DNA of 64,000 bases from Nemopilema nomurai (taxonomy: Eukaryota > Cnidaria > Scyphozoa > Rhizostomeae > Rhizostomatidae), in NCBI GenBank assembly GCA_003864495.1, contig ML133426.1, forward strand, positions 1,302,001 to 1,366,000, in the 5' to 3' direction. The notes beneath the pieces were generated by a model. That model did not search any database. It was not told where the DNA came from and worked only from the letters and a program-made list of their open reading frames with translations. The position numbers and the translations under genes were made by a program. The first letter of the stretch is position 1. Every line of letters starts with the position of its first letter. Positions 32,001 through 64,000 of this stretch are shown here, piece by piece.

Positions 32001-34283
32001 ACTTGCCTTTAGAAAGGCACTGGAAGAGTTTGAAGAGGAAGGAGGCATCCTAGGTCGGGCTGCAAGGTAACGATTTTTTTATCATTCCCTTGCACTTTTG
32101 AATCCTATAATTGCAATTATTTTCAAGGAATTTCGCTTGCAAACCTTCAGTCACAGTAAAGTTTAGTCCAACTGGCAGTTTGGTCACTAGTGGCTTAAGC
32201 AAATGATTCATTGCCTTAGAATAGTGAATAGGTTTCATGCTGACAAAATGGGTGTAGCGTGTCCCACTAGATCTCAAGTGATTGTCCCTTTGTATTTAAA
32301 GTTATCGTCCCTTGTATTTTCAAATTTCTGCAATGTCTGATAAGCTTATCTTGTTCTACATTAGTTGGTTACATAACAAACGATACAAATATACGTGTAA
32401 CTATAGTGGCAGCTTTAGGCCCTGTAAAAGAACCCGTTTCAAGTGGAAAAAGCAAGATTAGAACACTGCATGTCTTGCTGCAGGCTCTCTTGCCCCAGAT
32501 GAAGCTCCCCTATAGACAATAGTTGAATGCGTTTTAGTTGGATAAATTTTTAACGGGGCCCCTGCTTCCAGGTATGAGCTAACTTATTAAGAGTTAAAGC
32601 TGGTTAGGACAAAGTTAGGAAATTTCAAGCCACTGCTCAGATGCATGAAAGATCTAGAATAGCCCTTTAGACGCATTCAGACGTTTTCGAACGCAGTTTT
32701 TGTGCCTAGATTGTAAAGTGTGTGATATGCAGCAATATGGAATAGAATGGAATTTTAGAAAGCATCGTAGTGCACTATCACAGTGGAATCTCTGAATCGT
32801 TTTTGTACTTGCAGCCAGTGTTTTTGCAAGCTTTTTTATTTGTATTCCACTGTTCATACACTCCAGACTGCTGCCAACCTAGGGCCATCGAGGCGACCAA
32901 CTCTTCTCGATGCTTCTTTCTGAGGATATTTTTATAACGGATAAGGTGCCAATCGAAACCCACTCTTGTTTAACGTTCAGCATTCGGCGTGCCAAGAGAC
33001 TCCCAACTCAGCCCACCTGGGAATCGAATGACGCCCTGGCGCTGCCGTCAATGTAGTTTTCATCCGCCTCCCATTTTGCAAACAAGCACGGACGAGATGC
33101 GTTTTCAGTTTTCGAGTTGAGGCAACGTAGCGTGCGAAGATATTTCACGAGCGCTTTAAACTGGACAAGTCTTACACTACGACACGACTTCCTAGTAGCT
33201 ATCGAAGGTTTCAAGTCCTGGTGTCAGGCCCAACTCGTTAGCAAATGAAATTTGGCTTGTAGTGAAAGATTGCATACTATCAGAGATGCAAAGGCCAGTA
33301 TTCGTTGATAGTGGGAAATGGCGCCAGCAAGTCGCGGAAACCCCTCGCATTGCAGAGCGTGGTTGCCCGGACAAGAGCGCCGCTTGGAAAGGAATACCCG
33401 CCTAAAACACGGAATGCCATCCTGAAGTATGCTATTACAACAACCCTGGAAACATATTCAGTACTCATATTGCTTTCATTTTCCATAATTTATGGTTATA
33501 TCATTTATTTGATTACATATGACTTGATTTACAGATTATTTCCACTCATCAGCAATCTATCAATTGCTCCACATATTTGGATGCTTGCACATACGTTTGT
33601 CTTGTTATTGTATTTTTTGAGGAGCAGAGCTCTTCCTAGAAGGCCCACTACAGCTTTCACCCTTTTAACTGGTACATTTACCCTTAAAGCTCTCTCAGAT
33701 CTATCTAACGCTCTGATTGAAGATGAGTAAATTCCACTTCTTGTCAGCTTTGCTTTCACCTATCATACTGAGTGCCCCGGAGGATTGGTTTTTGCACGAG
33801 GTCTCTTCACAATGTATACATACCTTTTATTTCCATAATGGTTAAAAATTTCTCAGATTCATTAGCCACCTTTCTCTGCGAAGTTCCGTTTTTGTGATTG
33901 ATATTATGCTCTATTAGTACACATGAAACAATATTTTTATTTGTAAACTGATACATCATTTTGCGTACTTTAGGTACAAAAGAAACAGATCCATTCTCCG
34001 GGCGGGCATGAAGGAGATGGGTTTCAAAGAGTTCCTCGACAGCACCCACGATGGGTACATAATTACGTCATACTATTACCCAGAAGACCCCAACTTCTGC
34101 TTTGAGGAGTTTGATGTCAGGCTTGGACGGAAAGGCCAGGGGATATATCCCGGCCAGTTGACAGAGGCACGGTGCTTTCGGCTGGGGAACATCGGCCAGC
34201 TGTACCCAAGTGACATGAAATGTCTCTTGAAGTGCATCAGAGAAGTGCTCCTGGACATGGATGTGAAGCTCCCTCTTGATTGA
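25916..34283 (+). CDS. phnW: 2-aminoethylphosphonate--pyruvate transaminase, paralog B (4 exons)
   Basis: Same PLP-dependent reaction as paralog A. Coding exons are 25916-26039, 29150-29466, 31573-32066 and 33974-34283 (124, 317, 494, 310 nt), giving 414 residues and a TGA stop. Intron phases are again 1, 0 and 2, and exons 2 and 3 have exactly the lengths of those in paralog A. Signatures: KKLFTPGPLEV, PLQGSGTYAVEAV, MVHCETSTGV, IVDAMSSFGA with Asp 210, SSANKCIEGVPGF with the Schiff-base Lys 236, FTAPTH, CFRLGNIG with Arg 381. By eye exon 2 is about 63% identical to paralog A, so the duplication is old. Coding exons are markedly more G+C-rich than those of A. The first exon encodes a probable mitochondrial presequence. 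Confidence 0.95.
29875..29922 (+). repeat. 24-bp tandem duplication
   Basis: Two adjacent copies of TGTCTGTGACTGTGAAAACA plus AGA(T/C) in intron 2 of AEP transaminase B. Probably a replication-slippage duplication without function. Confidence 0.85.
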
Positions 34284-39177: not shown

Positions 39178-40921
39178 TTACTGTTTCCGTGGCGATTCTT
39201 CCGCGTCGCTCTCGTCTGATTCATTTTCGTTTGCGCTATCCTTACCGGCTTGGTTCTTCCATAATATGGTTATAAGGTGTTCCACCTGTTCCTGGTTGCG
39301 TTCACGTGCCCGCAAGGTCATGTTCTTGCTGCTGCTCATTTGCTTTATTTGTGTTATTAGCATGTGCCTCCGGAACACTTTCTGTATTCGTCGAGCTGCA
39401 GCGTTTTCAATTTTCAGTCTTTCTGCTGTTGTTATTTTTGTTGCCTCTTTATTTCGAGTTGGGAAAGAGGCGTGAAACCTTTCCTCGACTTTTGTCATCA
39501 CGGACAAGAAGTCCTGCGATTCGCCCCCCTCTACCTCTCCAATGGCCCGCTTGATCAAACTGGCCATAATGTCAAGGCAGTGGACTTTATGTTTGTCTTT
39601 CACTGGAATCTCATTTTCTTCGAGAAACCAATAATTAGGCTTTGGCACTCGCAACGGACCGTCAAGGGCATCGAGAAAGTCTGGAAGCTGGTAATATTTG
39701 ATGAACTGCGTCGCCTTTTCGTCGAATTGTTCCCAAATTGAATAGAAGGCCTCGAGATCATCTTCGGTGATGCCCGCCTCGTCTTGAGACTGTGCCTGGT
39801 TGAAATTCTCAAGAATAACCGCGATGTACATGTTGATCATGATTAATACAATCGCAGTTATGTATGACACAAAGAAAAATATTGCAAGAGGGATTGACCC
39901 ACAATCGTTGCTGTTATTATATTCCTTCCTGGGCCTTTCATCGCACAGGGGTGGTTTCACCATGGTGGCCTCCAAGACACCATTCCAGCCCGCTGCGGTG
40001 GCAATACGGAAGAGCAGACACATACTGCTGCCAAAGGTTTTAAAGTTGACGACTTGGTTGAAGGAGCCGGTTTCTTTCACGTACATGAAGAAGTTCATGC
40101 CCATAATTGCGTAAATAAACATGACGAGGAACAGCAACGTGCCAATATTGAGCAAGGCAGGAGCCGACTTGACGATGGTGAAGAGCAGCTGGCGTATCCC
40201 TTTGGCACTGTCAAAAAACCTGAGCAAGCGGCCTAAGCGAAATACGCGAATTACACGCAGGAGACCGGGCGAGAAATAGAGCTCCGCATCACCTGTTTTT
40301 AACTTTTCCCATAATATCACTGAAATGGAAGAGTTAATTGAACGTTACTGTCGTAATCATCAATGTTATTGCTACAATGATTTATTTTACTTTTTCATTC
40401 TAATTGTTTACAGTTGGTATAACTTCTAGCTATGCATAATTTACTCAAAAATGAATGTTGTGATTTGAAGGTAAATAATATTGACATCATCGTCATCATA
40501 GCCACACCATCACCCTCCTTGTTGATATTATCAACGCCATAATTTGCACTCATATCGTTTGCAGGGTGCTGCTACCTATTGGTTTAAAATGTCGTTTCTT
40601 ATTTGATGATCATCACATCCCAATGGAATAATTGGAGTGAATTCACTTACCTCCAACAGAAAAGACAACGACGATAAAGTCGAAGACGTTCATAAATGAT
40701 TTGAAGTACTCGAGCCTCATTGCCACCAGTCGAATGATAGCCTCGATTGTGAATATTCCGGTGAACAGGTAGTTGAGGTAGTCGAGGGCGATCGTGACCT
40801 CTTCTGGCTGTCCGTGGTGCTGAATCATCATTGTCACCATGTTGGCGATAATGACCGACATTATGAACAGCTCAAACTGTTTCGTCGTCGTGAAATCGAA
40901 CAGCGTTCCGCGCCATTTCGA
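39178..40921 (-). other. Sodium channel domain IV and C-terminus (exons 21-22)
   Basis: Exon 21 encodes S1-S3 ([20 protein letters not shown] through [14 protein letters not shown]). Exon 22 encodes S4 ([20 protein letters not shown], five Arg), S5, the pore [14 protein letters not shown] with Ala 1462, S6 ([20 protein letters not shown]), the EF-hand-like region beginning [17 protein letters not shown], the IQ motif and an acidic end ([14 protein letters not shown]). Asp is replaced by Asn in the GWDG motif just after the filter. Confidence 0.96.
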
Positions 40922-43900
40922 CTGTAAACAAGGTAATGTCACAGTGAATGTCTAGTTTTGTAACTGGCGTAACAACGGGCATTGGAAACTAATCTACTTA
41001 ATCTAGATCCTGGCTACTGTAAGCTCGATCTAGATTTTAAAGAATCTGAAAGATTGATTACAGCTGTTAAGAATATGGAAACACTTTTCCAGCTATTGAA
41101 TTTTTTCTCCAAAAAAAGATTAAGATATTTATCGTGAATTAAATGATTAACCGATTCCATTTGAATGTCTTGTTCTCTGTAGCTATTCTTCTCTCGTCTT
41201 GCATTGCTTTTTGCAAGGGAAAATTTAAAAGCTTCATGCTTTGTTTTCAAAGTAAAGATCTCCCAATTAATTGAATTTTTACAGCCCATTACAAACGCAA
41301 CAATACACGTGACACTGAATGCAACGTGATCACGTGATTACCTTCGGCCTCGTTAGCCTTCTGGTTGGCTTCTTGTCCGCTGCAGACTTCAAGGTGTTGA
41401 TCCAGTTTCGCTGCCCCGCAGTCAACAGGATTCCAATGCCATCTTCGTATTGCTGTTTCAGCCGGTTGAAGTTGTCAATGATGACTCCGATGAATAAATT
41501 GAGGATGAAGAATGCTCCAAGAATTATGAAGACGACAAAGTACAATTGCGTGTAGAAGTTGTTCATTGGCTTTGGTTGCTTATTTTGCTGAAAATTGTAA
41601 ATTGTAACATTAATTTCGTATGGTTAAAATGGCTTATTCATGGTAGCATGGATTTACCACGTGACATATGATTGCTGAATAGGCAAACGTGGGTCGAAGC
41701 ATGAACGCTGTGCGTCGCTATAAAATCTTAAAATCGGCCTAACGTACCTCCGTACTGTCGTATGCATCTTGCATCACCTCGAACCATCCCTCCAGCGTTG
41801 CCTAGATAAACCAAAAGCAAATAAAACTCGATTAATGGCTGCTTTGTTGCGTATTACCATGCAGTATCTTCTATTCACCTGACTTTTATGAAATGCGCCA
41901 AATAAGCCAACTTACCAACACCGTCAATGAACGAAAAGCAAACCAAGTCCAATAGACTTTCATTTCAAACCGAAACACTCTTGGCATTAATTAAAATGTC
42001 CATCAAATGGCATAATCTATTGCGTGCTCCAGAATTTTGAGCCCTTCCAACTGTCTTATTCTTTTACCTTAACTGTCACTGTTCATCATCCTTCATGGAT
42101 TTAGAAAGTCACTTACCGTTTGGAAGAGCGCCAGGAACCCAATTGCAGCATTATCGAAATTTATATTCTTGTTCACCCATCTATATCCCGTTGCGTTGGC
42201 ATTTATGCAGGCATTCCTATCACTGATTATGGTTTCACTTAGAATGTTTTGATCCTGGTCGACGCATCGAAAGAATTTCCCGCCAAACAACGTAAACCCC
42301 ATGACACTGAAGATGAGCCAAAAGACACCGCACACCAGCAACACATTAGCTATTGATGGAATCGAATGGACCAGCGAGTTGACGACGATCTAGAGCAGCA
42401 ACAAGAATTGCATTATTGACTTCCACAAGTAAGTGTTTAACTGCACTAGTGGAGTAATTCCGTCCAATTCTATCCAATACTAGTGAAAAGCATAATGTCA
42501 AATATGAAATTTTTTCGCCATAATAGACGGAATGGCCTTCTTTGCTGGAAAGATATTGCAATGTTCTGAGGGGAAGAGGCAAAGTTTCTTATCATCTGAT
42601 CAAGCGAGCCAAAATCGACGAAACTCTGGGATGGCACCATTTTGAAGCGTATGACAAACACGTGTGAGCAATCACAACATACCTTCATTCCTTCGAATCT
42701 TGAGATGGCTCTTAAGGGGCGGAGGGCACGCAGCGATCTCAATGCGTTCAGATTAGGATTGCCAAACAAGGATGCCAGTGAAATCTATCGAAGAGAGGAA
42801 TCTACTATCAGACCGGATTAATCTGGATTAACTTTATGCAGGCTGGATTAATCAGCCTATGATTGCTGATCGGGAGAGATTGCTGGCAGAGAGCAGGACA
42901 GAAACAAACTTAAACAGCTGTTAGCTACTTTTGATCCCAATGATAGGTTTCAATTGTTGTTAAAACATCTTAACAAAACTGTTTATTACCGATATTTGCA
43001 AAGCAGTTATTTGCAGCAGCTCGAATTCATTTGATTAGATGCTTTAAACTGGATTACGAGCTATGAAATCTTAAATTCAGTGATTATCAAGCAGAACAGC
43101 AAACAACAAAGAACTTACCGCGACGATGAAGAAATCCAGCAGATTCCAGAGATTTGAGAAGTACTTTATGAAGCCGAATCCAATTATTTTGATGAGAAAC
43201 TCAAGAGTAAAGATGACGGCAAAGAAGTAGTTGCAATACTCCAGAAAAGCATTGAGAGTTTTCCTTTTGGGCAAGTTTATGTCTTCAAAGACCTTAATGA
43301 AAATTGACGATGATTTTATTAGTCATTTGGGCAATAATGCAAATTTGGTCTCAGATTGGTCATTTTGACTTAAAATTTAGAGAGGAATATTTACGTTTAA
43401 TCATAGGACCCTTGCAGAATTATCAAGTAAATCAAGTGCAATTTGGCAATCAAATGCAAATCAAATGCAATTAAATGCAATGCAATTACATTGATGTATC
43501 AATCAAAGCAATAAATTGGAGCAAGCTTTTGAGAAGGGCACAGTTTATAGTGTGGGGAATCCTTTAAATACTCACCAGTGTGAGGCTGCTGAAGGCGATC
43601 AAAAAGAGGATGAGAAACTCGAAGTACTTGTTCTCGACAATGAACTTGCAGTAATATCTGATATTGTGCCAAAGGCGGCGAGGAGGCGAGTCCAGGTAGC
43701 TTGTATAGCAACAGTTGCAGGCATAGCAACAGAGGCAGAAGCAGTCGTCAATGTAGGTTCGTTCCCGGTGAATTTCGATCTTGACTGACGAAGAGGAGTG
43801 GCCCCTTGGCTGCTCTTTTCCCACCTTCTCGCTGGCACTGTCGTCCAGCTTGCCTTGAATGGCAAGTTCTGTCACACCTGATCCAGAGAACCTTTGATCG

Positions 43901-46900
43901 GTCATCCCCTGGAGATTCCCGTTGCGGGTGTGGACCAGGGAGTTATCACTGTCATGGCTGACAAGTGGGACTGGTTTCAGGTCATTTCCGTTCCCAAGCT
44001 TACCATTTGCTGAAACACAAAAGCTTGGTGAATAATTGATGGCAGATTTTACAAAGCGGTCAAATGCGTTGCTGTGACCATAGTTTGCACTGTGACACAA
44101 ACACGAAGCCATTCAATGTTCATAGCTACTACGTATCCATAAGAAGAAGTCATTACGCTCAAGTCATGTAAAGCTCAAAATTGGTTGTAGGCATAATGTA
44201 TGTTGAAGTGGATTAGTTTATGGTTTTCAAGGCAGCCTTTTAGGCCAGCAAACAAGCCCAAACTTAATATGCAGACCAGTCATTATTTACCTGGAATCAC
44301 ATTTCCGTTGGAATGCCCATTGATTTGGTTCCTTTGATTCATTTCAATAAAAAGCCCATTCTTCGGATTCGTTTTCCCATTTACTCCATTAAAGTCGCCC
44401 GCCATTAGGGCTTCTGCAGTTTGATGGTCACCGTTCTAAAAATTAAGACCGACACCGTGTTTTATTCCATATGAACGGACAAGATCACTCAGCTTGTAAT
44501 CAAAGCTTCAAATAGTATACATTTCAATAAACTAACTAGCAACAAAATTGGGACCGAGGAGCGATGTTTTATTTGTGAGGGCAAAAATCAACAAAATTCA
44601 TTTTCCTTTTTTCTAAACATTTTCGATATGCACATGAGCATCTAGTTCTGCATTTCTAACGTGCAAATATTTTAAAAATTCGTGAATCCTAATTTCCTTA
44701 ACTTAATTCCAAAATCATTGCTATGATGCGAATGCCAACAAAAGTGACATAAACCTTTTTGCAGAATGACCTGTGCAAGATGGACCAAGTTCTACTAACT
44801 ACATCCTTCTCTTTAGTTACTGTCCGATCTGTGATATGTCGTCGACATTTCCTGAACAATGAGTAAGATAGTTAGAAATATGACGAGGAAGTCTAAGGAA
44901 ACACAAACCATGTTTGCATCAGCTTTATTCTGCATTTCGTCGTTTGACTTCTTTTTCCTTCTGCTTTTTGTCCATTCAATCAACCTCTGCAGTCTTGTCT
45001 TCTTTTTCTCCTTCCCACTTTCCTCGTCTTCATTTCCCTTCAACGCGTCGCCTCCAAACGAACTCAGCAGCAAGGCAAGGAATAAATTCAGGACCTATGA
45101 TTGTATAATTGTTTCCCATTTTAAGATGGTCAATTTAGTCCATAGTATTATATAATGACGTATTGTTCTTTGTACCTTGTACTTCTAGTTGCTAATTATT
45201 GATAAAAATTTAGTGAACAAGTTTCAGATCCGTAAAAAACAACACCTTGGTAATGGATTCAGAAAAATCCTGAATTCTGAAGTAATAGCAAAGCAGTTTA
45301 GAAGAAGAACGAAGCAAATGAAATGTGGTTTGAGAGAGAAATTATGAGGCAGAAAGTAATTGACAATGTATTTGTATTAACAATGGTGCTGGTCAAAAGA
45401 AAGCAAGGCATACAGAGGACCAGAATTCTTGGCGAAGCGAAGGAAGATTTTGGTAGGAGAGAAGAGGAACTTGCTAATATCGAGAAAAATTTTGACTGCA
45501 AAGGGCTCATGTATAAGAAGAAGATTGAGAATGAGGAGAAAAACAAGATAAAGAATGATATGATTAAAAGAAACAAGCGTAAGAAGATGAGAGGAAGAAG
45601 AGTGAGAGGAAGAATAATGAAAGGAAGAAGAGAGGGAGAAGAATGAGAGGAAGAAGAGAGGGAGAAGAATGAAAAGAAGAATATTGAAAGGAATAAGAGG
45701 GGAAGAATAATGAAAGGGAGAAGAGAGGGAGAAGTATGAGAGGAAGAAGAGAGGGAGAAGAATGAGAAGAAGAATATTGAAAGAAAGAAGAATGAGAGGA
45801 GGTTTTCTTAATTCATGTTGCCAAATTACAAATGTATTGCTTCATATGCCTTTCACATTATCATGTGCCTCTTATTTTTCATTTGGGATCATCTATGAGC
45901 TATAACCATAACATTCCTTCCCCCCCTTTTGTATCTAAATTTGATGGAAAATCAAATTGCGCTCTTACCACCCAGCGACCGATGACGAAGACGATGAAGA
46001 TGAAAATGAACGACGCTGGGCTTGTTGCTCTCAATAAATCCCACTGCGGCTCAATCCACTTGCCGCAAAGAATCCTGAAAATCATCATAAAAGAGTTGCC
46101 AAAGTTCTTGAAATTGTATCTCGGTATATTTTCACCAAAGGCTTCCTTGGTGTATTTGCTGCCAAAGAGCTGCATTCCGACAACCGCAAATATGTAGATG
46201 ATGATGCAAAGAATGACTGTTATATTCCCAAGGGCTCCAATGCTGTTTCCTATTGTGCTTAGAAGCTGCCCCATCGTCTTCCATGATTGAGCTAACTTTA
46301 ACACACGGAGCTGCAAGACAAGAAGATAAATGACGTCATCATCTTAGTAGCGTTAAGGATGGTCAAAGCCTAAATGATTGGTAAATAGAACATTACACAT
46401 TGTGCAAGTGTAGTTAAGCTTCATCATTTTATTGAATTTAACAGCCAAAAAACCAGATGTTATGCTGCTAATTTTTTAAAAAGTAGATAGTCAAATTAAC
46501 ATTGTAGGAGTCTTAATGAATCTTAGATGGTGAACAGAGGGGTAATGTACCTAGATGCAAAATAGAAAATTTTGATACTGACTCAACCTTTCAGTATAGT
46601 AGTGACGTAGAGACATACCAATCGAAACACCCTCATGACACTGAGACTGCTGCCTCCTATTGATGTGGATTCGGAGAGAATCAGGTCCAGCAAACTGGCA
46701 AAGACGAGAAATCCATCGAACAGATTCCAGTTGTTTCTTGCGTAGCCCTTGGGCGTCAGGGCTATAAGCTTGCATATCATTTCGAGTATGAAGATCGTGG
46801 TGAATATCTGAGGGAAGAACATGTAATCTAGTAAAAGCTCTAGTTGATGATTTCCTAGAGACCAGCCATCCCAATTTTTATTATGTATTTTCCTTATATT

Positions 46901-49900
46901 TTTATTTGTGGTACAAGGAAATCTGCTTTTCCTTCAGTCGTTCACTATTACCAATCTTGGACTCTTCAAAATGCATCTGACTCTCCATTTCTTGAACAAA
47001 CGTTTCGTACTAAAAATCTTTGAAATAACGCTGCACAACGAAATGATTCGTCTGACAGTCCTCAGAGTATGCAAACGTCGGAAGATTGTCAAAGGTAATG
47101 AAATTTTTAGCCAGTTGTCGGTCGAAAAAAACTAGATGGTTTTACGAAGAGCACATGATTTTCTCTCTAATACCTATGCATGTCATTGCCTTGTATCGTA
47201 TTTGGAAAAGCAATAACATGTTACGTGCTGCACTCTGGTGAGCTGCCCAGATCGCTAACATAACTGCACTTGCATAGCAGATGCCCATTTCACGAATAAA
47301 CGAAGACGGAGAAGAACTTACATAGTTGAGTATATTGGAGATGACGTCCATAATGCGAGGCTGATCAAAGTGCTCACATGCCATGGCTACTGTGTTCAGC
47401 ATGATGCAAGCAGTGATAAACCCTTCAAATATCGTACTGCCCACGAAGATGTACATTCTCACACGAAATCTGCGAAACCAAGAAGGATTCTCGCCAAGTT
47501 CTGGTGGGCCTGTCTCCGCTTCCATGAACTCCTCCTGGTTCTTCCTCAGACTCTTGGGAAGATTGTCGACCGTGTACTGTTTCTCTCCGTCAATCTCAAC
47601 AACGGGTGAGGTTCCGTGCAGCAACTCAGCCACATTCCGACCATCGAATGAATACGTCGACGCACTCCTACGCATGTCCTCAAGTCGTTCATTTTCACGT
47701 TCCTTGAGATTAGGCCAGAGGTTGGTTATTACTTGGGAGCCATCTACTCACCGGGTGTTGATACCGAAAAGCTTATGCTCATAGGGTGTTGATTCTTGTC
47801 AAGAAACTACGCCTAACTGGACACATGTGACGATGCTTGAAATACAGGAGATTTTCAAATAGGGGAAATGAGAGTTAAACGCAGATGGAATGATTTTCAA
47901 AACATCAATACGAAGAAGACGAGCTTCCTGGATTTGATTAACTGAAAATGACATTCTATGATGCTTTGCTAAGTATCGCAAATTGAAGTTGTGTTTGTAT
48001 GTGTCTAATATACTGAATACTTAATGCGCAAAGTATTTGCTGATCAAATGTTTTGCACAGGCAAAGGACTTACCAAGTCTGGATCTCCGTTGACTTCTTG
48101 CTCGTACGAAGCACTGACGACAGCAAGAACTAAATTAAGTAGGTAGAAAGGGCCTAAGAAAACAGCTAGTAAGAAATAGATCATGTAGGGTTCGCCCATC
48201 GCAGCAATTACCTGCAAAGATAGAAAAAAACTAAATTTACAAACAGATAATCACAAAAGTACACAATATGGTTGTATGCCATAGGGAAGAGGACACTTGG
48301 AAATACACATGGAAAACAGCAGATGATGCGAAACAGTAGATATGAAAATAAACACGTAGATGCAATCGAAAACAGTAAGAATATGAGATTCAGCATAAAA
48401 AGTCGATGATTTAGAAGTGATTAGGAAGACTTAAACAGCTAAACTTAAGCATTAACAAGAAGGCATCAGTAAGTAAGCACCTAAGTGTGGGCAAAAAGGT
48501 AAGATCTAGAAATGACAATAAACAAGTTAGCAGATTCACTGACGACTTTTGCTCTCAAACGAACGTAAAGTGGAATAGCAACTTTGCAATACATACACTG
48601 TCATAAACACTTTCCCAGTAATCCAGGGTGCACACTTGCAAAGATGTCAGCATAGCAAGGATGAAATTGTCGTAGCCTATGAAGCCATGTTTCGGGTTTG
48701 GCCCAGCTTCAGGCACACAAATGTAGTCCTGCGGGCATGTCCTGGAACGAAGCATTGTTTGCAGAATAAAGCATCAGTTATTGTTTCAAAGACAAAAGTA
48801 GACTGGCAGATGATTTCAAATGCTAATTGTGGGCATTGGTGATCTCCAGCTATTTTGATATTTGGATCTGTTAGTAGACACATGCTATACACACATAATC
48901 TTTAACATGGGACAGTTTATATCTATGAGCTGGCAATCTAGGAGTAAAAGTGTGTGACTCGTAAATATTGCACTTCATGACTGGTGAACTATGTAGATAA
49001 CCCTACGCTTTTTATATTATCCCGTTATTCTAGAATCAGAGAATCCTAAGTTGGTCGTAAAGTAGGCCCTAAACTGAGAGATTTTAAAGGCTTTTGGATT
49101 TAGCGATGAACGTTTTACATACCATGCTGTAGATGCATTTCCACAAATAACGCCTTCACCCTGATGCATATACCAGTTACCTTGAAGAAATGTAGACACA
49201 ATTGATAAATGTATGAACAAGGCAATCCCCTTATAACTAGTGATGTTCTATGCTTCAATTCTCAAAATATGTTGTCTACACTCTCAGCTTCTTAAGTGCT
49301 GTATTATTATGTATTACATTAATTGTGTGAGACTTTTGGCTTTCTTAGTTTCTTTCAGAGTGTCCTAGGTTTTACAATTTTCATTGCATTTTCATTTATA
49401 AGAAAAAAACTTAGCAGGATATCCATGTCTTACTTGTATTTTTGTAGAACTCTTTGCTGAATGTTGGTATTCCTTTTCCATATCGTACACATCTTGCCTG
49501 TAATTTGCCAGTAAACAATTGAAGTCCGATTAGCGCAAAGATGGCGATGAAAAACAAAGTCAGTATTAGCACATCTGTCATCATCCGCATTGACTTCAAC
49601 AGCGTATTCACCATTGCTTTTAACCCTGGTTGATAGAAAATATTGGACAAATTAAATCATAACTTAGAAAAAACAACCTGAGTACTTCTAGTCTAAGCCA
49701 AGATTCAAATTAAAAAACTTAAAGAGCTAAGTTTAAAGTTTATTTTCAAGCTCGCCTGCATAATAAATTGTGATGCTTAAATTGATTAAAAAAACGTTAA
49801 GGTAGGGCCAAAGAGTGTCAAATTCACAGCTTGGATGAGGTAGTCCTTAAAAATAGCCACAACACTTTCTGAGCAATTCTTACCCTCAAAATAATAGCAT

Positions 49901-52900
49901 ATTTTTTAACTAAGTTCTAGCAAGTAGCCACAACAAGCGTGGATATAAATTGCAGGTTCGAAATGCATAAAGTTTTGCCAAATATCTTGAAGTATCCGTT
50001 TAAACATCAAATATGCTCTGACGTTGATATGTTTTTCATTTAGCATTAGCAATTGTTAGTTACATGAAAAATTGATAGCAGTCAATACCCTTCACTGTTG
50101 ATATAGTCTTTAACGCTCTCAGAACTCGAAATGTCTTTACACCACTGTAGTCCTCCATTTCTGGTATCATTGTTACATATCTGGATGGATATAAAGAGCA
50201 ATGTTCTCAGTAAGAACAACATAAAAATTAAGTCATCATAAGTTGAAAAATACAATGATGTAGTCATTATCGGCCAATGCAATGACCAGTTGCCAGACGT
50301 CTTCTCTGTAAGCCCTTTACATTAAGGTAGAAATTTGTCAGTTGCAATGCACAGAAAACTGGCGTACCACAAATGTTTAGATGAGCTTAGACATTAAAAA
50401 CCAGCTATGGAGGTGTTAAGTGCGCCATCTTTTCATCTGCTGTTTGCTAAATCTATCTAATAAAGAGGCTTAAACTGTTTAGCAAAAGGAAAATATAAGA
50501 CATGCATCATGCTCATATATTGTTTATTATATCGTTTGGAAAGACACTGCAGCAAATATCAAATATAATGTAATTAAATAGACATTTACCCTACAATAAC
50601 GACAAAGAAGTCGAGCCAATTCCATGAATTCCGTAAATAAGAATATTTGTGAAGTATAAATCCTTTTGCCAAAACTTTAACCGTCACTTCGAAGGTGTAA
50701 ATTACAGCAAAAACATACCTAAAAGATTGAGAGAACATTTCATAAAATTATTAAAGTGCTCCTCCTTGCACTTTTAATATAATTCTGCATCTTAATCTGC
50801 ATCTTTCATGTCTTTTTATCATTATGCATTAAAGATGAATTTTTGGCTTGGTGAAAGCAAGGCTTGCAGCCTTGCAATCTTTATAGCTCAACAGATTTGG
50901 ATGACCTTGCTGTTTTCCAATTCGTCAGTCTTTTCTTTCCTGTCAAGTAGCATTGACTATCGGGCCACTTTAACATTCTCTATTTTGTTTAATATATTTT
51001 TTCTTTTCATACTGTTGATAGCAATTGTCAAGTAGTCTCTTACAAAAAACTAGAAGCTTTATTCAGTTATTCTGGAAGAACCACAAACATCAAATTATGG
51101 TTTTGCTTTGCTAGACTAAAGAGTAATACTAATACATTTGTTTGTATGAAGTTTGTTTGAATGATTTTATTGACAATATAAACTAAGAGCTTCTGTCTCA
51201 AAAGAAAATACATAAAATAGACTGGCCTTAGCGAAAGACATCCCTTTCTTCTAATATAACCTAAGCTTTTAATGAAGTTTGCTTACTTTTACAAAAACCC
51301 AGACAAACCAACCATTGAAAAATTTGTAAAAGCGTGTTCTTTGACACCCGAGCTTAACAAGAGCCCTCGCTTTCCGATTTATGAAAAAAGTTAAAGTTCT
51401 TTTCGTTGCTTAATGTGTTGAGAAAATTAAAGTCTTAATCTTGTTTTTCGTTGATCTTACAGCTTGTTCTGTATCTTCTAATCGTGTTAGCATACCTCAT
51501 GCTATTTTGATTTCTTGACTAAGTTCTTTATTAGATATATGAGAAAAAGCTTCTTTTTGATAATCTTGGTGAAAATTTTTCAAGATTTTTCACAGGATGC
51601 CTTCAAGTAGTAATTCATTACAAATCAATAAATTTGACAATATCAATAAAATTATACTTACTCAGCCTCCTTTGGTGGATCTGACAATGCCATAAAGACA
51701 CAATTCGTTATTATGGTTAGTAAAATAAATATTTCAAAAAGTCTGAAATAGGTTAAGGAGCATCAACAGAGGTATTTTGTACTAATTTCAAATTTTGCAA
51801 AGAGATTGTAAAACATTTCGGTATACTTCTTGAATTTTGAAGAGAATTACCTTTGTGCTAAAGCGAAAAACATGCTATTCTTGTCATTCTACCCTCCCCC
51901 CCCCCCCCTACTTTCTCACATCCTCAGCAAACCCCTTTTATGCCTATTACCCAAATAGGGATCATTAAAGTATAAATAACAGTATAAAAACATTTCTATT
52001 TCATGACAAGAACATTATATTTCACGAATATATCAATTTACGCTGTTGAATGGTTATCATTTGATGAAGATTCTCTTATTTCTCTTAATTAGGTGCCTCT
52101 TATATCAAGGTCCCTTTTATATAGCATCGATTATGATGGCAAGACCTATGTTAAATTCAAAGGGGAGCTGGTAGTTTGAAGACTCGATTGTTTGTGCATG
52201 AAAAAGATACTGATGGGTGACGATGTATACAGTAACTTTTCGCACTGAGCTGTCAGTGCCAAAGCAGAAAAGTGACTTGTCTTTTGAAAATCTGTAGACA
52301 GTCTGCTTTCCAAGTTTGTTATTCACCGCCACAAACGTCTACAAGAAAAGGATATAACATTTAATTAAAATATCAAAATCATTTAATAAGTATCAGAGCG
52401 GAAATTAAACTTTTTGCTGGTACTTCTAAAGTTTTATGACAATCACAGCAAAATTATTTAAGCTTTTTACTCTTTACAGCTGACTGGGAATTGATGTCAG
52501 CTGAATTTTCAACACCAAAGAAGTGCGGAGAAGTGAGATACGAAATCAGTAGATAGCGAGCTGTGTTTTTAGAACAGATGAATTGCCTCGATCAAAGAAG
52601 CTTACAAATTTCTATGACGTCAGCTAGCAATGACTCATGCAGCATTGAACTACCCGTTTAGGACATTATTTTGCAAACAGTACTGCGTGCATGGTATTTC
52701 TTTGCACCCGCATCTGCCGCTTCGCAATATCTGCATCATTAATCTCAGCATCACAAATTATAATTTCTACACCAGTACCCAACTGGCATCACTCACTAGG
52801 TTATGTTTTCAATATGCTAATTTCAAGGACACCTTATTCGTTCTATCAAAACTTAAGTGTTAGCTTGGGGACCGTTTGAATTCAATCAGAGTACAAATTT

Positions 52901-55900
52901 TTCGAATAGCTTTTGTTACAAAAATGGGAGTTATAAAAACAGCAACTTTTGTGGCCCTAGCTGGTTGCTGTAGCTAAAGATAAAATTAAAAATTTTGTGA
53001 TGAATCGTAGATATACTATATAACTTTAGCACTACCTAGATTTCTATGAATCAGATCAACATTGGAATTAAGTTTCACAAAAAAGCGCAGCACTATTGGA
53101 AAACTGTCAATAATCACTTTATCTATTACCAAGAAATCTCAAGAGTCTCTGTGGATTTTTTTGCATGTTCTTGCAAATTTGCCTTGAATCGCCATTAGAA
53201 AAGCTTGCCAATCACTCCAGTTCTGGGCAGCAAAATGTGCTTTATTTTTAACTTTAAAGCTATTTAATAATTTGTTCAACTAAAATGCTTAAAAATTTAA
53301 TTACTTTAATGCATCTTTGAGCCACTCCAATAATCACTTTGCGAGATTATGCCGATGAGGCTGTTGAAATTAACACTTCTGTGATAAGAAAAGCCCATTA
53401 AATTGCACCACCCTTCATTGTAGCCAGGGTATTAATTTCCGATCGATCAAGGCAAAATGCTCAGTCACACCATAGTAACTTTGCTCACACGTACCTCGAT
53501 GCACAGAATGCGGGGCTATTTGAGATTTACTCTTTATGTGAAGGCAAGAAAGCGAAACGACCATTTGAGATCAGCTATGAAATCAGCTGACGAAGCGCTA
53601 TTGTGCATTCAATCGAGTTTTTTAGGGCATTTTAAAAGGCCGCGAATCGTCGATTGAATTCATGGCTTTGTTAATAATTAATGATTCACTGATGGTATTT
53701 TTCAGGCTGAAAATTATCATAATATGAATAATTAACGATGCTATAGAGTTGAATGAAATAACTCTAACGTCAGTTGGAAGTGCAGTTTAATCAACAGTAT
53801 GAATACTCTGTTGAAAGACCAACCGTGGAGATAGCAGTTATACCCCATCGGTCGCTTTTATAAATCTACAGTTTTCGATTATGTTTGCTCCATATGTAAT
53901 TCATATCCACCGAATACCGTTTTGTCAGTTTCTAATTAGCCCGGTGAACAGGCGATCATATTTGACAATTGAGTAAATAATGCGTATGCAGATATCTCGG
54001 AATAAGAAGCTATGTTGGTCTACAGGCAAAAGTTGACTGCTACGGATCGACAACCAAGGCTGGATGTTCTCTGCTTTCCCAAGAGTATTTCCTCTCAAAG
54101 CCATTGGCAAACCCAAGTCCGGACTTTAAACTAGGAATGAATTGCTTAAAGCATTTCTGCAGTGCGTGATACTGTTTCCCTTCCGTGCCAAGGAGGATAT
54201 TCTTAGTTTAAGTTGCTCCAAAGTTCTGACAGATTGACATCCCCACTACACTTTGTTAGTCCACTTCCCAGCATTTTTGTCTTTATTGGTATTTTACTAT
54301 TGAGATTGGCGTGCCAAGTATCAAATTTCCTCTAATATCGAATTCTTTAAGAGGACAATTGTTTTCATTTTTTTCCTCACAGACTTTTAAAGGAATGGGA
54401 TACATGTTATAAATTTCATTTTAGACAGGTAGAAAACCACAGTCTGGAAGAATTTCGGAGGCCCCTACTGAGGGTGGAATGCCTATGGTCATACAATCAC
54501 ATTGTAATTTGCTGGATACAAATGACGATGTCATCTAAAATTTTAGAAAAGAAAAATTGAAGGCAGGAATCTGGAACCGCACTATAGATGCTAGAACCAC
54601 TGACATTTTAAAATCAAGAATCAAAATGCAGAATTTCACGTGAGAATTAAATGTTTTGAACAGCTTGATACTAAGCCGTAGGGTTTATGTCTGCAATTTA
54701 GGCCCACTGTGATGAGACACATTTCTTCATTGTCGACTAGGGATTTTTGATACGACATCAAAAATCTACAATCAGACAATGAAAAAGCCTCAGTCATATA
54801 TGCTCTTCGAATCTAAAAACCTAGAATTATTGTGGTTTTAAAATGAGGAAAGTAAAACCAGAAGTTCTATTGCATATTGCACTGAGGTAATCCAGGATTT
54901 GGCGGTATAATGTCGTTTATCATATAAGCCTGAAAAAGATGACTTGGAATTGCCTTTTGATATTGCTAACAGACGGGACTTGAGGCGCATTAGCCAAAAC
55001 CACTGCACGACTTTCTTCATGTCATGCAAATTTAATATAACTTATGCATGCAAATTTTCTCCATTAGAAAGTTTAAAGTTCTAGAATGTAGCCTAGCTAA
55101 ATTTTGATCATAACTGCCAACCATCTTTTAGAGAACCTTACTTTTAGAAGTATATAACAAACACGCATGAAGATTACGCCTATCATCTGCAGCAGAAATT
55201 TTCTTTTGAATAATTTCATCGAAAGTTTGCCACCAAACACCCCTGCTATCTTTCGTATAATATTTGATGAAGAAATATTGAAAGAATCGTCCATCATGAT
55301 ATTGTATCTGGTAGACCTGTCCTATATTAAACTGACAAAAACAATTGCTTTGAGAAGTCAAAATAATATCATGCATTGAAATATCATCTAATCCTGATAC
55401 TCTAATCAATTTGATCTTTGTTTGTATAATACGAACATATTGGTAGTCGACTTAAGATATTCATGACCAGCTGCTACGAACTTTCGCATGGGTTCATTCT
55501 GCTATGGTCAGTTTTTGGCAGATATGAAAGAAAGAGTGTTATTTGCATCTTAGCACGTCAGCTTGTTAACAAAGCCCGTTGTTGCGACATAAATGACTGA
55601 ACACGTGCTCTTTCGCCAATTAAGGTGATGATTCATGCAACGAAATAAGTGAAATTAGTTTCTACTTTAAGTTGGCCTATCTATTAATCATTTTACCGTG
55701 TTGCAATTATTATCATCCTTTTTAAAATCAGCAGTTTCAAGATAGCTGCAACGAAATTCTTTAGTTTGAAGTAATAGTCTCTGTGTTTCTGAGCTCAGCT
55801 TTGATTAGACTGAGTCTCTTGCAGTTGCAGGGGGTTGCCATACCTTTGGAACCCGCATTTGCAGGGGGTCGAATTCTGCACAGCCAGTCTTAATGGACTT

Positions 55901-58900
55901 CCAATGCCGGCAAACTTTTTGTGAAGTGGTGGCACTAAACAATGTCATAGAAAGCCCTCTATCAAATTATTTTATTTTTTTCAACCTACTTTGAAAAATT
56001 GTTTTAAAATATATGAATCACCAGAGGGCATCATTAGAATCAGCTAATCATTGGAATGGGCACGTGGATTAACCATATAAGCATGAAATTTATGTTCGCT
56101 TAAAACTTCTCCGTATGACATTAGACTTCTAGCATTGAAAGCCAACTTAGTAATATCGTAGTGGCCATATGCGCAAAGCATATGAGTACGCCTTCAGTTA
56201 ACCTATGATTCTGGAGGTGCGTACTTTCTTCAATTACCGTACCTACATTAGCTCTCTCTGCACAGTACATGTCTTGAATTGATAGAAATGAAATGTCCAA
56301 CTTTCAACTAATTCAGATGACCGACTTTGCATTAATTACCTCCACTTTGCCTTTGTCTTTATGATTTCTTTAAACTATTCTTCAAAGTAGACATTATATT
56401 TGTCTTCTTTACCATAAAAAGTACTAAAAACAAGATCCTTCAGAAAAGTTTTTGCTTCCAGCTAACCAGTAAATTAAGCCAAACTCTTCAAACAGTTGGG
56501 CAGCTTCAGAATATTTTGGATATTGAAATCTTCGTTTTTAAAATTTCAAATCAGATAATTCATGAAAATGTTCATCATAAGAAGTCATTATAAAGCGTGA
56601 AGGCAGGTGGCTTCTTTAAACGGCGAAATAGCTTCTACTAATCAGAAGAATAATAGACAGCGTACATCTTCATGCTGCATACCATTTTATGAATAGACTG
56701 CATTATTGTAGCTATTCCAACTCTCCGTACTTTTATTAAAGCAAGGATAACTGATGTTTAAAGCTAGTCTAAAGAGATATCGCAAACTTTCAGCAAAATT
56801 GAAAGGCAGTATTTGAATGGACAGCCAAAACTTAATGGAAGTAGCACCTGCATTACTGCGAAATAGAAAAATAATCTTTCAAGAGCTCAGGAGCATGATG
56901 ATGTGTTTACAAAACTTCGTCGATAGGTAATGGCCAATGCATAAAGGAATCTAATTCAACAGTCCTAAGGTGTGACGTAACATAATAAGAGGTCTCTTGA
57001 TTAACGAACTTTTGGTGAAGACATATTGATTATGAATGATTTAAGAGTTGTTAACCTTTTGCGATGATTTAAACGTTTTCAATGCAATGCTAGCTGATTG
57101 TGACTAGATGACAATAGTCATGCGGCTGATTTCACTGCTGGTTGGAATCTCGTGTCACGAAGAAATCTGTTGCTAAAAGTGCAAGCCTAGATCATCAGAC
57201 GAAAGCAAGGCCAAGTACCTAGTTAGGCCTAAATATTTGGCACCTTTTGATATCTCAGCAGTGTTTGTAGTGAAATAAAAGAAACCTTGTCAACAATTCC
57301 TTTTGAGTTCCACTAGACAAGCCAAAATGCTTGCTGAAAGTGGTGCAGTAAATTCCTCTATGTCCCTCGGATCTCGATCCATGCCTATAATCCATCTATA
57401 TGCGCTTGCTACAGACTTTATTCCTTTTCATATTGCTTTTTTCATGCCAAGTCAACGTTATAGACAGCATTTTCGACATTTTTGTTTTAATTGATGCTGC
57501 TGGGCTGCCACAATTCTCTGAACTTCACCTGTAAATTCTTTTATCCTGTATGAAACTATTTTTATACTAAAAAAGTTGAAAATAGTTTCCTCGCTATTTC
57601 CAAAGGAAGGCCGCATCCCTGAATCAGCAACTAAAGCATCATCACTAGAGGAATTCTACATTTAACTTCACTACGAAGCTCTCTTCCTCAAAATTTCCTT
57701 CATCCCAATTATCTCTTTTCGCTGCTTCATTTCAGTTTACGCGGTCGTCCAGGCCACGGATCGCTCTTTTTCTAGGTTTTACCACACTGACAACCTCATT
57801 GTCAACTTGTGTTTATTTTTTGGCAGCCTTTCAGAATCAAACTTTCAATGCAACAATTATTTTGTTGGTTTTACATTTCTTCCCGTCTAAAGTTCAACTT
57901 ATTGTTTGCGCAACTTTTGATAAAAGCTCCAACTCTTTCAGCCCTCCAAGCCTTGAGATTGGTGATTTAATTTTCTTTGAATTCTGCACAGCCTGGTCCA
58001 TCATTCTCGCTCTTTCATTCTTCAACACAACAATTCAATTCATCCACTATGTTTTCACGCCTAGAACAGTCGGTCGCCATAATTTTGCCTACAAACTATA
58101 CGCATGGATTTAGTTGACTTTCTACTTGATGTTGGTAATGTTTTTAACAATTCTCTGTGGCTGTTGGCATAACAGAGCCTGTGAGGTATCTTGACAGTGG
58201 CTTCATTGCCAATGGTAACGCCTATTAAATAACAAGCAACTGAAGCCAACTTGAGTTTACAAGCCAGCATATTGGTTTTCTATCAATCAAGAGCCCCTTT
58301 GATGAAGCAGAGAAAAGCACAAGACTAAGGCCTAAGCGCAAAGAACTCAGCGAATCTTTTTGCATAGACACATGAGCATTAAAAAGGTTGTGGAAGGCAG
58401 CTCCAGACATCTGCCTGTTAAATAGGTGTATTCAGACTGGAGAATTAAAACCCAAGGCAATCATTCAGACAATAGGCTGCGGTAAAGTACCTGTTTTCTC
58501 AATACAGGACTATCATCTGAAGCATATTTTTGAAGCGTGTAGAAACAGCATTGTCATATAATTGGGTTATTGCCATGACAATAGAATACTTGTTGGTGAT
58601 TGCGAAATATTGTAGATTCTGATACTTAAAAAATTTTCTAAAGAACTAACAAGAATTTTCCTTCTTGGTAAAGGGGAACGTTATTAGGGGCTCCTTTTAT
58701 GCCTTAACCAGCCTTAGAACTCACCGTTTTGATAAAAGCACGTGCCTTTTTTAAGTCATCATTATAATTGTCAACTCAATTGAATGTGTAATTTGTTCTT
58801 TTAGCTAGTTTTTGATCTAGGTGTTGCAAGTTCCCTAATGCAGGTCTTGTACACAAACATTTAAAATGCAATTTGCAGCCAAGAGTCTTGGTTCATGAAG

Positions 58901-60245
58901 ACAGCCTTCTACATTGATGATATCATCCTGAGAATCCCCAGTTCTACAGCAGCCCCTAGCAATGCGATGTATACAGTGACGTAACTTAGAGACATGTGAT
59001 AAGGAGCCCGTTCGCACAACGGCCAAGCTGTGTGAAAATGTTATTCTTTCTCAAGCAGGTTGCGCTTAAGATTCAACGGCACTCGTTTTCAATCAATGAT
59101 TGCATTATTGAACAACTAGAACCTGCCTTTGTTGTTTTTGAAAAAAACACTTGCTTCAAATCTCATCTGGATATTTGTTTTACTGCAGTGTTGTTACTTC
59201 TACATTTTTGACTGAAGTTTCAGTAGCAGCTCTGAAACTTATTCAACGGGATAATGCAATGCTATTCTTTCAGCGCCTGTTGGATGCGACCTTATGTCAG
59301 CTGACTTTTGGCTCGTCCATCTATGCTCTCTTTGTTTAAGTACTTCCCAAAGTTTAGCTGCTTCACTCTGCTTGACTTTTTGCAGTCTTGCCTTAACAGA
59401 TTACAGAACTAGCTACGGTGGACGCCCGTGGATAATCAAATAGAGAGAACACAGGCGCCAAGGATTTGCTTTGAATTGCCTCCGCCGCTGGGTTTTTGAC
59501 TGCGACCCGTTTGAGGCTCTAACATGAATAAATGGCGCATAATTTATTCGCAGCACTTGTTATGTTGGAATGCATGACTACGTATGGGTTACTGTGGAAC
59601 AACCCTGCGCATTGCGGAGTGGTGCCCCTGTTGGTGTTTGTAGTGCAGAGCTGCCAATAGCAATCTTCGAAGCTGAAGGCTTTCGCTATATTTGCTTCAT
59701 TATAGACATTGAAGGCGTTGAAAATGCCGTTGCCACCCTTTTGGGCCTTTTACCAACCTACGAAAACTGGCCGATCAATATAAAAGGATTAAAACACATA
59801 TCCTTGACTTCGGTTGCACTCCTGTTTGTTATTCCCACTTAAACTTTCCACAGAAGCCGCAGGCTGACTGTTTTTCGTAACAGTAACACAAAACTGATCG
59901 CTAAATCTATTTACGCACACGTCAAAACACGTCGTAAGTTATACTTACGTTCTCCTGCCCACTATCGAAATCCTTTAATGGTTTTCCAAGCATACATTGT
60001 GGTACATAAATAAACTCATCCAATTCTTCTTCTTCCAACGCCTCCTCAAACGGTATCCCCTCTTCAATCTCCCCATCTTCGGGGTACCCAGCTCGCAGGG
60101 TGCTTGGGGTTCTACTACGTCGGCTGCCTGCATAACGGCCGTCATCGGATTCCAGTCGACTCCCCCTCCCATCCGACCGACTAATTCTACTTTCACGGCC
60201 CTCGTCGGTTCCCGAGTGCCTTCCCTTTGCCACATGGTAGAACAT
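39178..60245 (-). CDS. Nav2: Voltage-gated sodium channel alpha subunit, cnidarian DKEA type (22 coding exons)
   Basis: Plasma-membrane channel of excitable cells with four repeats of six segments. Minus-strand coding exons: 60245-59949, 52338-52211, 51742-51662, 50718-50590, 50180-50089, 49625-49434, 49180-49123, 48741-48597, 48211-48074, 47702-47322, 46807-46619, 46310-45969, 45094-44909, 44435-44291, 44009-43576, 43292-43119, 42784-42683, 42389-42117, 41801-41748, 41587-41342, 40921-40651, 40319-39178. Lengths sum to 5,199 nt (1,732 residues plus TAA), all junctions are GT-AG and all phases agree. Filter residues are Asp 366, Lys 694, Glu 1166 and Ala 1462. The start ATG has A at -3 and an in-frame TAG just upstream. 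The first 99 residues are highly charged. The C-terminus has an EF-hand-like region and an IQ motif ([14 protein letters not shown], about 1660-1673), the usual calmodulin site. Calcium channels are excluded because they carry acidic filter residues in all four repeats. Expression of the gene is not shown by the sequence. Confidence 0.96.
41342..44435 (-). other. Sodium channel domain III coding segment and III-IV linker (exons 14-20)
   Basis: Exons 14-15 encode an Asn/Gly-rich II-III linker, then a Cys-rich stretch ([12 protein letters not shown]) just before S1 ([16 protein letters not shown]). Exon 16 holds S2-S3; exon 17 holds S4 ([20 protein letters not shown]), five Arg. Exon 18 holds S5 and the turret. 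The 54-nt exon 19 carries the pore, [10 protein letters not shown], with Glu 1166 where bilaterian channels have Lys. Exon 20 holds S6 ([20 protein letters not shown]) and the III-IV linker, in which ILL (1233-1235) replaces the IFM inactivation particle. Confidence 0.95.
44909..47702 (-). other. Sodium channel domain II coding segment (exons 10-13)
   Basis: Encodes residues about 421-786. Exon 10 holds a short I-II linker and S1 ([20 protein letters not shown]). Exon 11 holds S2-S3 and the first half of S4. Exon 12 completes S4 ([15 protein letters not shown] across the junction) and encodes S5 and the pore, [15 protein letters not shown]. Here Lys 694 occupies the site that is Glu in bilaterian channels. 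Exon 13 supplies the end of S6 ([13 protein letters not shown]) and a Lys/Arg-rich start of the II-III linker. Confidence 0.95.
45560..45810 (+). repeat. Purine-rich tract (GAGGAAGAAGA)n
   Basis: Imperfect repeats of GAGAGGAAGAAGAGAGGGAG and related words in the channel intron between coding exons 12 and 13. One strand is almost pure purine. The open frame running through it (Lys/Arg/Glu only) is an artefact. Confidence 0.9.
48074..52338 (-). other. Sodium channel domain I coding segment (exons 2-9)
   Basis: Encodes residues about 100-420. Exon 2 ends at the start of S1 ([14 protein letters not shown]). Exon 3 holds S1 ([18 protein letters not shown]). Exon 4 holds S2-S3 ([20 protein letters not shown] ... 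[10 protein letters not shown]). Exon 5 carries S4, [17 protein letters not shown], four to five basic charges. Exon 6 holds S5 ([19 protein letters not shown]). Exons 7-8 hold the extracellular turret and pore helix, ending [15 protein letters not shown], where the Asp is the filter residue, preceding an aromatic Tyr. Exon 9 holds S6 ([20 protein letters not shown]). Confidence 0.95.
52339..59948. other. First intron of the sodium channel (7.6 kb)
   Basis: Separates the N-terminal cytoplasmic exon from the rest. No complete nested gene is visible. On the minus strand, degenerate coding-like patches occur near 53900-55410 and 57250-57900 (the latter listed separately), probably remains of old mobile elements. 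Confidence 0.55.
57250..57900 (-). pseudogene. Degenerate coding-like relic, unknown family
   Basis: Read on the minus strand, several short coding-like patches occur in different frames, broken by stops: near 57800-57740 a basic stretch [15 protein letters not shown], then [11 protein letters not shown], and near 57415-57300 a stretch [20 protein letters not shown] followed by [15 protein letters not shown]. The order and coding-like composition suggest a mutated gene or transposon open frame. No family can be named. Confidence 0.3.
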
Positions 60246-62340: not shown

Positions 62341-62730
62341 GCTGTGATATGTTATATACTATGCTTTATGCGATGTTACGAATTATGTTACGTTTTTTGT
62401 TGCGTATTATGTTACGTGTTACGTGATATGTGATATGTGATATGTTACGTGATGTTTATGTTATGTTATGTTATGTTATGTTATGTTATGTTATGTTATG
62501 TTATGTTATGTTATGTTATGTTATGTTATGTTATGTTATGTTATGTTATGTTATGTTATGTTATGTTATGTTATGTTATGTTATGTTATGTTATGTTATG
62601 TTATTCTGTGTGTTAAGTTAGATAGTCTGCAACGTGCTACGTGTTATGTGGCGTACTATGTTATGTGTTGTGCTGTGCTGCATTATTCTGTGTCGCTGTA
62701 TATTATATGCTGTGTCATGATATGGTGTGT
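62340..62730 (+). repeat. (TTATG)n microsatellite with degenerate flanks
   Basis: A perfect TTATG run spans 62456-62603, about 29.6 copies. On both sides lie mutated versions (GTTACGTGTTACGTGATATG; GTTATGTGTTGTGCTGTGC), showing that the array was once longer. Open frames reading Met-Leu-Cys-Tyr-Val repeats are artefacts of the 5-bp period. Confidence 0.97.
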
Positions 62731-64000
62731 TATGCTATACCCAGTCGTGTCATTCTGCCTGTTGCATTTGATGAATGTTGATTGATAAACTTGGTAGATA
62801 GCTCCTTCTACCTGCCTCACGTTAGCACCGTCCTGGAGACGGCGAAACTGCTTAAGCAAACAAGTCATGTTCAATACATTCTGTGGCCGTTATTTTGTGG
62901 TCACCCGCAATCCAAAATGATGCATATTCAAGTTTTAGAAACATGGCTCATTCATGCAAAAATAACAGTCACAATCCTCTAACAGGTTGCAAAATAAATT
63001 GAATGAGTTTGTAAAACCGGTGCAACATCATAACATATACTTCAAGGTCTCTTAGATCTTTCTCTAACTGGTAAATAGTATCTGAAAACATCAAATTATT
63101 TGAATTATGTTATAAAACAAATCTATTTGTGGCAGCCAAAAATATATCGATAAATGAAACCAATATGCTAGATGTTATAAGATGCATTTGTGGTGGATTG
63201 GGTGAATTATGTGGTAAAAATTGGACATGACAGTTTGCAGAAGCCTATAGTTTCTTGCTTCGAAATGAAGGTCTTGCTCAAGAACAATAGGCAGGCCACA
63301 ACCAACCCATCATTTCAGAATCAGATAACTTTATTGTGTTTTGTAAGACAAACTTTGTTTGAGTTCTCTGTTGGAAAAACGACAAATTTCCCGTAACATT
63401 GGAAAAATTTCAATCAATTTTGAAGCACATAGAGCAGTCTGATTAATTTATTAAATATAGCATAATGAATGACACTTTTTGCTGCAAAGACAAAACACAG
63501 TGACGGGCTTTGTTCAAAGCAGCTAAGTGCATGTGGGCTCTAATTGAAAATGAGAGAGAGGTTTAATACTTTTTGGTAATAGCACGGTGAGAGCTTTATT
63601 GTTATCTAGCAAAATCCAGAAAGAAGCAAGCGTGTAACACCCACTCAAACAGTGAAGACGTTTGGAAGATATCAGACTTATGTTAGCATGAAAGGGGTTT
63701 AAAAACATAATTCAAAAGAAATTTTCACTCATCCTTAGCTCCTGTAAGTTTATAATTAAACTTGCAATATCAGCTTCTTTATTGTTGGGGTTTAAATTTT
63801 AATGAACGTCTTGTGTGTCGTTAAATTCAAAGAATGGGAAATGACATGAAATGATTTCATGCCCAGATAATGGATATTGACCTTGCTTGGACTAAAAGAA
63901 TTAAGAATTCTTGGACTAAAAGCTTGCCACTGAAAAATGTTGTGCTTAAGCTGCTAGCTAGTCCACGCGGCCCCCAAGGGCAGCGCATCGGAAAGCGCTG
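62731..64000. other. Non-coding, no gene recognised
   Basis: AT-rich with short random open frames. The last 50 bases are unusually G+C-rich (GTCCACGCGGCCCCCAAGGG...), and could be the start of something that lies outside the window. Confidence 0.5.

Follow-up and report, generated by a model that had tools for sequence, protein, structure and literature searches.

A complete gene for a four-domain voltage-gated sodium channel is located on the minus strand of the window (the whole 64,000-nucleotide stretch of Nemopilema nomurai DNA analysed here), between an ATG at 60245 and a stop codon ending at 39178. Its selectivity filter reads Asp, Lys, Glu and Ala (DKEA) in domains I to IV (DI to DIV), and with a probability of about 0.93 the channel is a jellyfish representative of Nav2.5, the cnidarian family of DKEA sodium channels.

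Gene model and exon structure

The exon model built from the sequence (39178..60245) consists of 22 exons encoding 1732 amino acids. The 21 introns are GT-AG throughout and compatible in phase, and the single open frame has one stop. The protein has four repeats, each with S1 to S6 and an arginine-bearing S4, as in four-domain voltage-gated cation channels. An Ion_trans match above the cut-off was obtained for both pieces tested (exons 12 and 22), and the last exon matched Nav1.7 (sodium channel type 9) with an E-value of 4e-97. A search of approximately 5.8 billion proteins returned 7279 matches, of which the best 120 were used. The gene is not a chance reading: besides the Nav1.7 match, the closest of these 120 (P0001) is 91.5% identical over 1575 amino acids and has the same four filter residues. 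The 21 GT-AG introns and the open frame rule out a chance or pseudogene reading.

The pore motifs CTLDYWE (48612-48632), LCGKWIE (46050-46070), ATLEGWF (41781-41801) and TAAGWNG (39979-39999) each occur once on the minus strand. In the joined model, the filter residues are D366 (codon 48623-48621), K694 (AAG, 46061-46059), E1166 (41792-41790) and A1462 (39993-39991). Thus, the four residues and the Lys 694 numbering given in the preliminary description were recovered after splicing, as were both end coordinates of the gene.

All exons lie on the minus strand and were assigned from the model, with additional evidence from the pore motifs (exons 8, 12, 19 and 22) or the alignment (exon 20). Exon 1 (59949..60245) encodes the N-terminus from the ATG and starts with MFYHVAK, resembling MFYNVAK of P0003 and P0005, and exon 2 (52211..52338) runs from the cytoplasmic N-terminus to the start of DI-S1. 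The rest of domain I is encoded by exons 3 (S1; 51662..51742), 4 (S2 to S3; 50590..50718), 5 (S4; 50089..50180), 6 (S5; 49434..49625), 7 (extracellular turret; 49123..49180), 8 (pore loop with Asp366; 48597..48741) and 9 (S6; 48074..48211). Exon 10 (47322..47702) covers the I-II linker and DII-S1 and includes a 19-residue stretch also present in P0001. It is followed by exons 11 (DII-S2 to S4; 46619..46807) and 12 (DII-S4 to S6 with the pore loop and Lys694; 45969..46310). The end of DII-S6 and the II-III linker are encoded by exon 13 (44909..45094), exon 14 (linker, matching P0001; 44291..44435) and exon 15 (linker and DIII-S1; 43576..44009). Domain III continues in exons 16 (S1 to S3; 43119..43292), 17 (S4; 42683..42784), 18 (S5 and the start of the pore loop; 42117..42389), 19 (filter, with L1165, Glu1166 and F1169; 41748..41801) and 20 (S6 and the III-IV linker with the latch; 41342..41587). 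Finally, exon 21 (40651..40921) encodes DIV-S1 to S3, and exon 22 (39178..40319) extends from DIV-S4 to the stop, including A1461, Ala1462, an EF-hand-like region and an IQ motif at residue 1664. The model is weakest at two splice sites, the exon 13 donor (GTTTGT) and the exon 10 acceptor; at either join the encoded protein is in agreement with P0001, for example, ADANM|NGDHQ at the exon 13 junction, corresponding to ADANMNGEHQ.

Intron 2 (51743..52210, minus strand), located in DI-S1, is of the U12 type, with the donor GTATCTTTT and the branch site TCCTTAAC near the acceptor. It has one mismatch to the donor consensus, which was scored with R at the first base so that GT was allowed, and fits the branch-site core TCCTTRAC without a mismatch; the remaining 20 introns all have at least three donor and at least two branch-site mismatches. 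A conserved minor-spliceosome (U12) intron at DI-S1 of Nav and Cav genes is described in the accessible part of PMC6259924, and this family trait is present here in intron 2 only among the 21 introns. Its position provides a check on the gene model that is independent of the pore.

Relatives, pore residues and gating

Among the best 120 of 7279 matches, P0002 (80%) and P0007 (78%) were the next closest to the window protein after P0001, and identities were 63% for Hydractinia, 61% for Clytia, 53 to 57% for Hydra and 49% for Actinia, Acropora and Montipora. In an alignment of the window protein with 197 fetched proteins, the DII filter residue was lysine in 15 of the 197 and glutamate in all 182 others, counts that apply to the best matches of longer lists rather than to a census and do not prove the absence of the lysine elsewhere. 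The 15 lysine-bearing proteins comprise 13 with the full DKEA filter, one without DI and one without DIV. Eight of them are named by organism, in every case a cnidarian (Hydractinia, Clytia, three from Hydra, Actinia, Acropora and Montipora).

Two variants were observed within this group. The DI filter region of P0009, a Hydra vulgaris DKEA paralogue, is strongly changed (FSLDNLDI versus CTLDYWES). In addition, P0010 to P0014 and P0024, which are anthozoans or group with them, read ATLEGVFE in DIII, with Val replacing the near-universal Trp after the filter Gly, unlike the window channel (ATLEGWFE) and the other medusozoan-type DKEA rows, which keep the Trp.

A DKEA filter in cnidarians is reported in PMC4436565 and PMC6259924, and Nav2.5 is described as a Na+-selective cnidarian DKEA channel in PMC5095125 (all three as far as their accessible text goes). 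From its DKEA ring and its family, the window channel is predicted to be Na+-selective. K694 probably lies in the filter's narrow ring, where it would disfavour tight Ca2+ binding, and Na+ would then carry fast action potentials in nerve nets. Neighbouring P-loop changes may help the lysine in this role.

Residues within 20 positions of the filter were compared between 16 DKEA rows and 16 presumed cnidarian DEEx rows (11 named and 5 unnamed). K694, L1165 and F1169 were found in 16 of 16 DKEA rows; the DEEx rows have F or Y at the position of L1165 and M or I at that of F1169. A1461 was found in 14 of 15 DKEA rows, whereas 15 of the 16 DEEx rows have S or G there. Two farther positions in DI, Y349 and S374, also track the DKEA rows. 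Under a strict rule (one residue in all DKEA rows, another in at least 90% of the others), 3 of 19 signature positions fell within 10 residues of the filter, compared with 84 of 1335 eligible positions (p 0.11); under a looser rule, the count was 4 of 13 (p 0.007). Both rules were set after the motifs were known and the rows are related, so these p-values are rough. Given this modest enrichment, the three P-loop changes accompanying the lysine (L1165, F1169 and A1461) may serve as a lead for mutagenesis. At these three positions, F, M and S occur in a hagfish DEKA channel. Because this DEKA pore does without the three changes, DKEA and DEKA pores might attain Na+ selectivity by different means, a tentative and rather doubtful proposal.

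The III-IV linker of the window channel is short, and its latch is ILL at the place of the IFM of Nav1. Within the clade, the latch is also ILL in P0001 and reads IFL, VLL, FFL, IYL, VFL, MFL or FLL in other members. This variation leaves room for a channel that lacks fast inactivation owing to its latch. Similarly, the rest of the pore could make a DKEA channel less than strongly Na+-selective, considering that P-loop regions besides the filter contribute to selectivity (PMC5095125, in the portion available). We regard either outcome as unlikely: in most members of the DKEA clade the four pore motifs resemble one another, P0009 differing in DI, and native cnidarian Na+ currents are said in the accessible text of PMC6259924 to resemble mammalian Nav1 currents. 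The same text classes cnidarian DKEA channels as Nav1 and states that they give no expressible currents. Na+ selectivity of the window channel stays a prediction. Fast inactivation with the ILL latch is plausible and cannot be assumed, because the latch differs from IFM. The S4 segments of all four domains look intact.

Low tetrodotoxin sensitivity may also be expected, judging from the lysine that replaces glutamate in the DII filter and from F1169 and N1465 of an outer ring with the sequence E-E-F-N. According to the part of PMC4436565 at hand, loss of outer-ring charges is linked to tetrodotoxin resistance.

Origin of the domain II lysine

A tree of 42 rows was built, chosen from 316 proteins, the window channel and two channels of the same genome. 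Besides the window channel, the rows comprised 12 of the 15 lysine-bearing proteins (P0008, P0013 and P0024 were omitted as near-duplicates or incomplete), 12 DEEA, DEET or DEES channels taken as cnidarian (9 named and 3 unnamed), 9 named bilaterian DEEA channels, 6 vertebrate channels, all DEKA, and, as outgroup, the two other channels of this genome. Of the 119 vertebrate rows added to the protein set, 117 were DEKA and one had a gap; the hagfish query was also DEKA. The remaining vertebrate row reads DEQA instead.

In this tree, which came from a quick search with Nav1 drawn from vertebrates only (6 rows) and has a very long outgroup branch, the 13 lysine-bearing rows formed one clade (SH-aLRT 100) with an anthozoan branch and a medusozoan branch. 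Every named member of this clade is a cnidarian, which bears out the cnidarian affinity claimed in the preliminary description. The lysine clade sits inside the cnidarian-type DEEA channels, although the support of the nesting branches (89 to 92) is below 95. After exclusion of the four columns of the filter and of the more distant outgroup, the support remained 100 for the clade and was 88 to 92 for the nesting. The lysine is common to the named anthozoans, the named hydrozoans and this jellyfish and therefore predates their split. The earlier claim that the filter dates the lineage holds in this relative sense; it yields no absolute date.

Reviews differ on the naming of the cnidarian DKEA channels, which are Nav1 in PMC6259924 and Nav2.5 in PMC5095125 (both by their accessible parts). 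The former also describes filters swapped between domains, which would fit a true Nav1 orthologue whose lysine moved from DIII to DII as a mirror swap, DKEA and DEKA having one origin. We consider this highly improbable. When the 13 DKEA and 6 DEKA rows were constrained to one clade, with the filter columns removed, the lnL was 136 lower (p-AU 1.2e-67), and Nav1 orthology of the window channel was thus rejected by the tree test. Moreover, vertebrate Nav1 groups with the bilaterian DEEA channels (support 95, or 92 without the filter columns). The window channel has Glu1166, not Lys, as its DIII filter residue, and it shares no common clade with the vertebrate DEKA rows. Since a single DKEA and DEKA clade is rejected, the lysine arose twice, and the lysine states on the tree need two changes; the convergent origin proposed earlier is therefore upheld. 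For the window channel, the tree favours the Nav2 reading over Nav1.

Other channels of the genome and comparison with known systems

One further alternative, that the DKEA pore belongs to one splice form while alternative pore exons give a Ca2+-type filter, draws on the filter switching by exon choice seen in other four-domain channels (NALCN; PMC4436565, partial text) and is scarcely credible here: a comparison of the model exons with the exon-masked window, a search restricted to the window and weak for short diverged exons, found no duplicate pore exon, the best listed match (E 0.13; exon 18, turret part) carrying no filter motif.

Elsewhere in the window, two pieces of aminotransferase class-V genes (Aminotran_5, Pfam) lie on opposite strands, at 13121-13624 (minus) and 31555-32070 (plus). 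Four frames without a Pfam match (12402-12827, 13889-14329, 29131-29550 and 33927-34283) look like further aminotransferase exons by eye. A short tandem repeat at 62427-62785 (plus) gives repeated YVMLC in its open frames.

The same genome, assembled into 226 contigs (212.9 Mb), was searched exon by exon with DII-region queries, and at least two Nav genes were found, the window DKEA gene and a DEEA gene at C88. The pore motifs of the latter are TMDFWEN, CGEWIEP, ATFEGWM and STSAGWN, those of DIII and DIV being read from single exons. The part before its 13th exon was compared with Rhopilema esculentum P0019 and is 95.9% identical over 712 amino acids.

Weaker DII-region matches were a Cav2-like channel at C62 and a NALCN-like channel at C44, both EEEE, as well as sequences at C61, C70 and C130. 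The C62 channel (677501-683500, minus) is a four-domain channel in one uninterrupted frame of 1524 residues, and of the solved structures, Cav2 (N-type) comes closest to its DI piece. To our knowledge, an intronless gene of the Cav2-like type is unusual, and this one could be a retrocopy. The NALCN-type channel at C44 (1427501-1433500, plus) likewise has one uninterrupted frame, of 1686 residues. At C130 there is a pore exon of the Cav type (ITLEGWT); the summed score was highest with the Cav query in both stretches compared, although in one of the two the DEEA query gave a slightly better single match. The family search also yielded C169, which holds TGDNWSG, which we take to be a motif of Cav3 domain IV.

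The DKEA channel type is already known from cnidarians (PMC5095125, PMC4436565 and PMC6259924, each by its accessible part), and this gene is a further member. The term "sodium channel" has 0 occurrences in the main text of the Nemopilema genome paper (PMC6441219), and a partial literature search revealed no account of this particular gene. The additions to the known picture are the U12-type intron in DI-S1, the ILL latch and the three P-loop changes. The gene provides a complete and intact jellyfish representative of a channel type showing that the filter lysine evolved twice in animals. Additionally, the DKEA gene and its DEEA sister in one animal form a natural pair for testing what besides the lysine gives Na+ selectivity.

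Nemopilema is a rhizostome, as is Rhopilema. The cnidarian DEEA Nav2 channels (Rhopilema P0019 and the C88 paralogue) have the same architecture as the window channel, and seven DI exons of the window gene and the paralogue are identical in length (81, 129, 92, 192, 58, 145 and 138). They differ in having glutamate for lysine in DII and an IFL latch, with 46 to 50% identity over two long aligned pieces. Bilaterian Nav1 (DEKA) resembles the window channel in having a lysine in the ring, with Na+ selectivity expected, whereas its lysine is in DIII, not DII, and of separate origin. Among scyphozoans, Cyanea capillata has a sodium channel, presumably the one named CyNav1. This channel (Anderson et al. 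1993) is cited for the cnidarian DKEA filter in the available part of PMC4436565 and is likened here by description. So is PpSCN1, a medusozoan channel of Polyorchis penicillatus that PMC6259924 cites from Spafford et al. (1998) and that is DKEA according to PMC4436565 (accessible parts of both); it is hydrozoan, and the hydrozoan relatives listed above share 53 to 63% identity with the window protein. Nematostella Nav2.5, compared by description since no fetched row bears that name, is like the window channel a cnidarian channel with a DKEA ring within Nav2 (PMC5095125, in its accessible portion).
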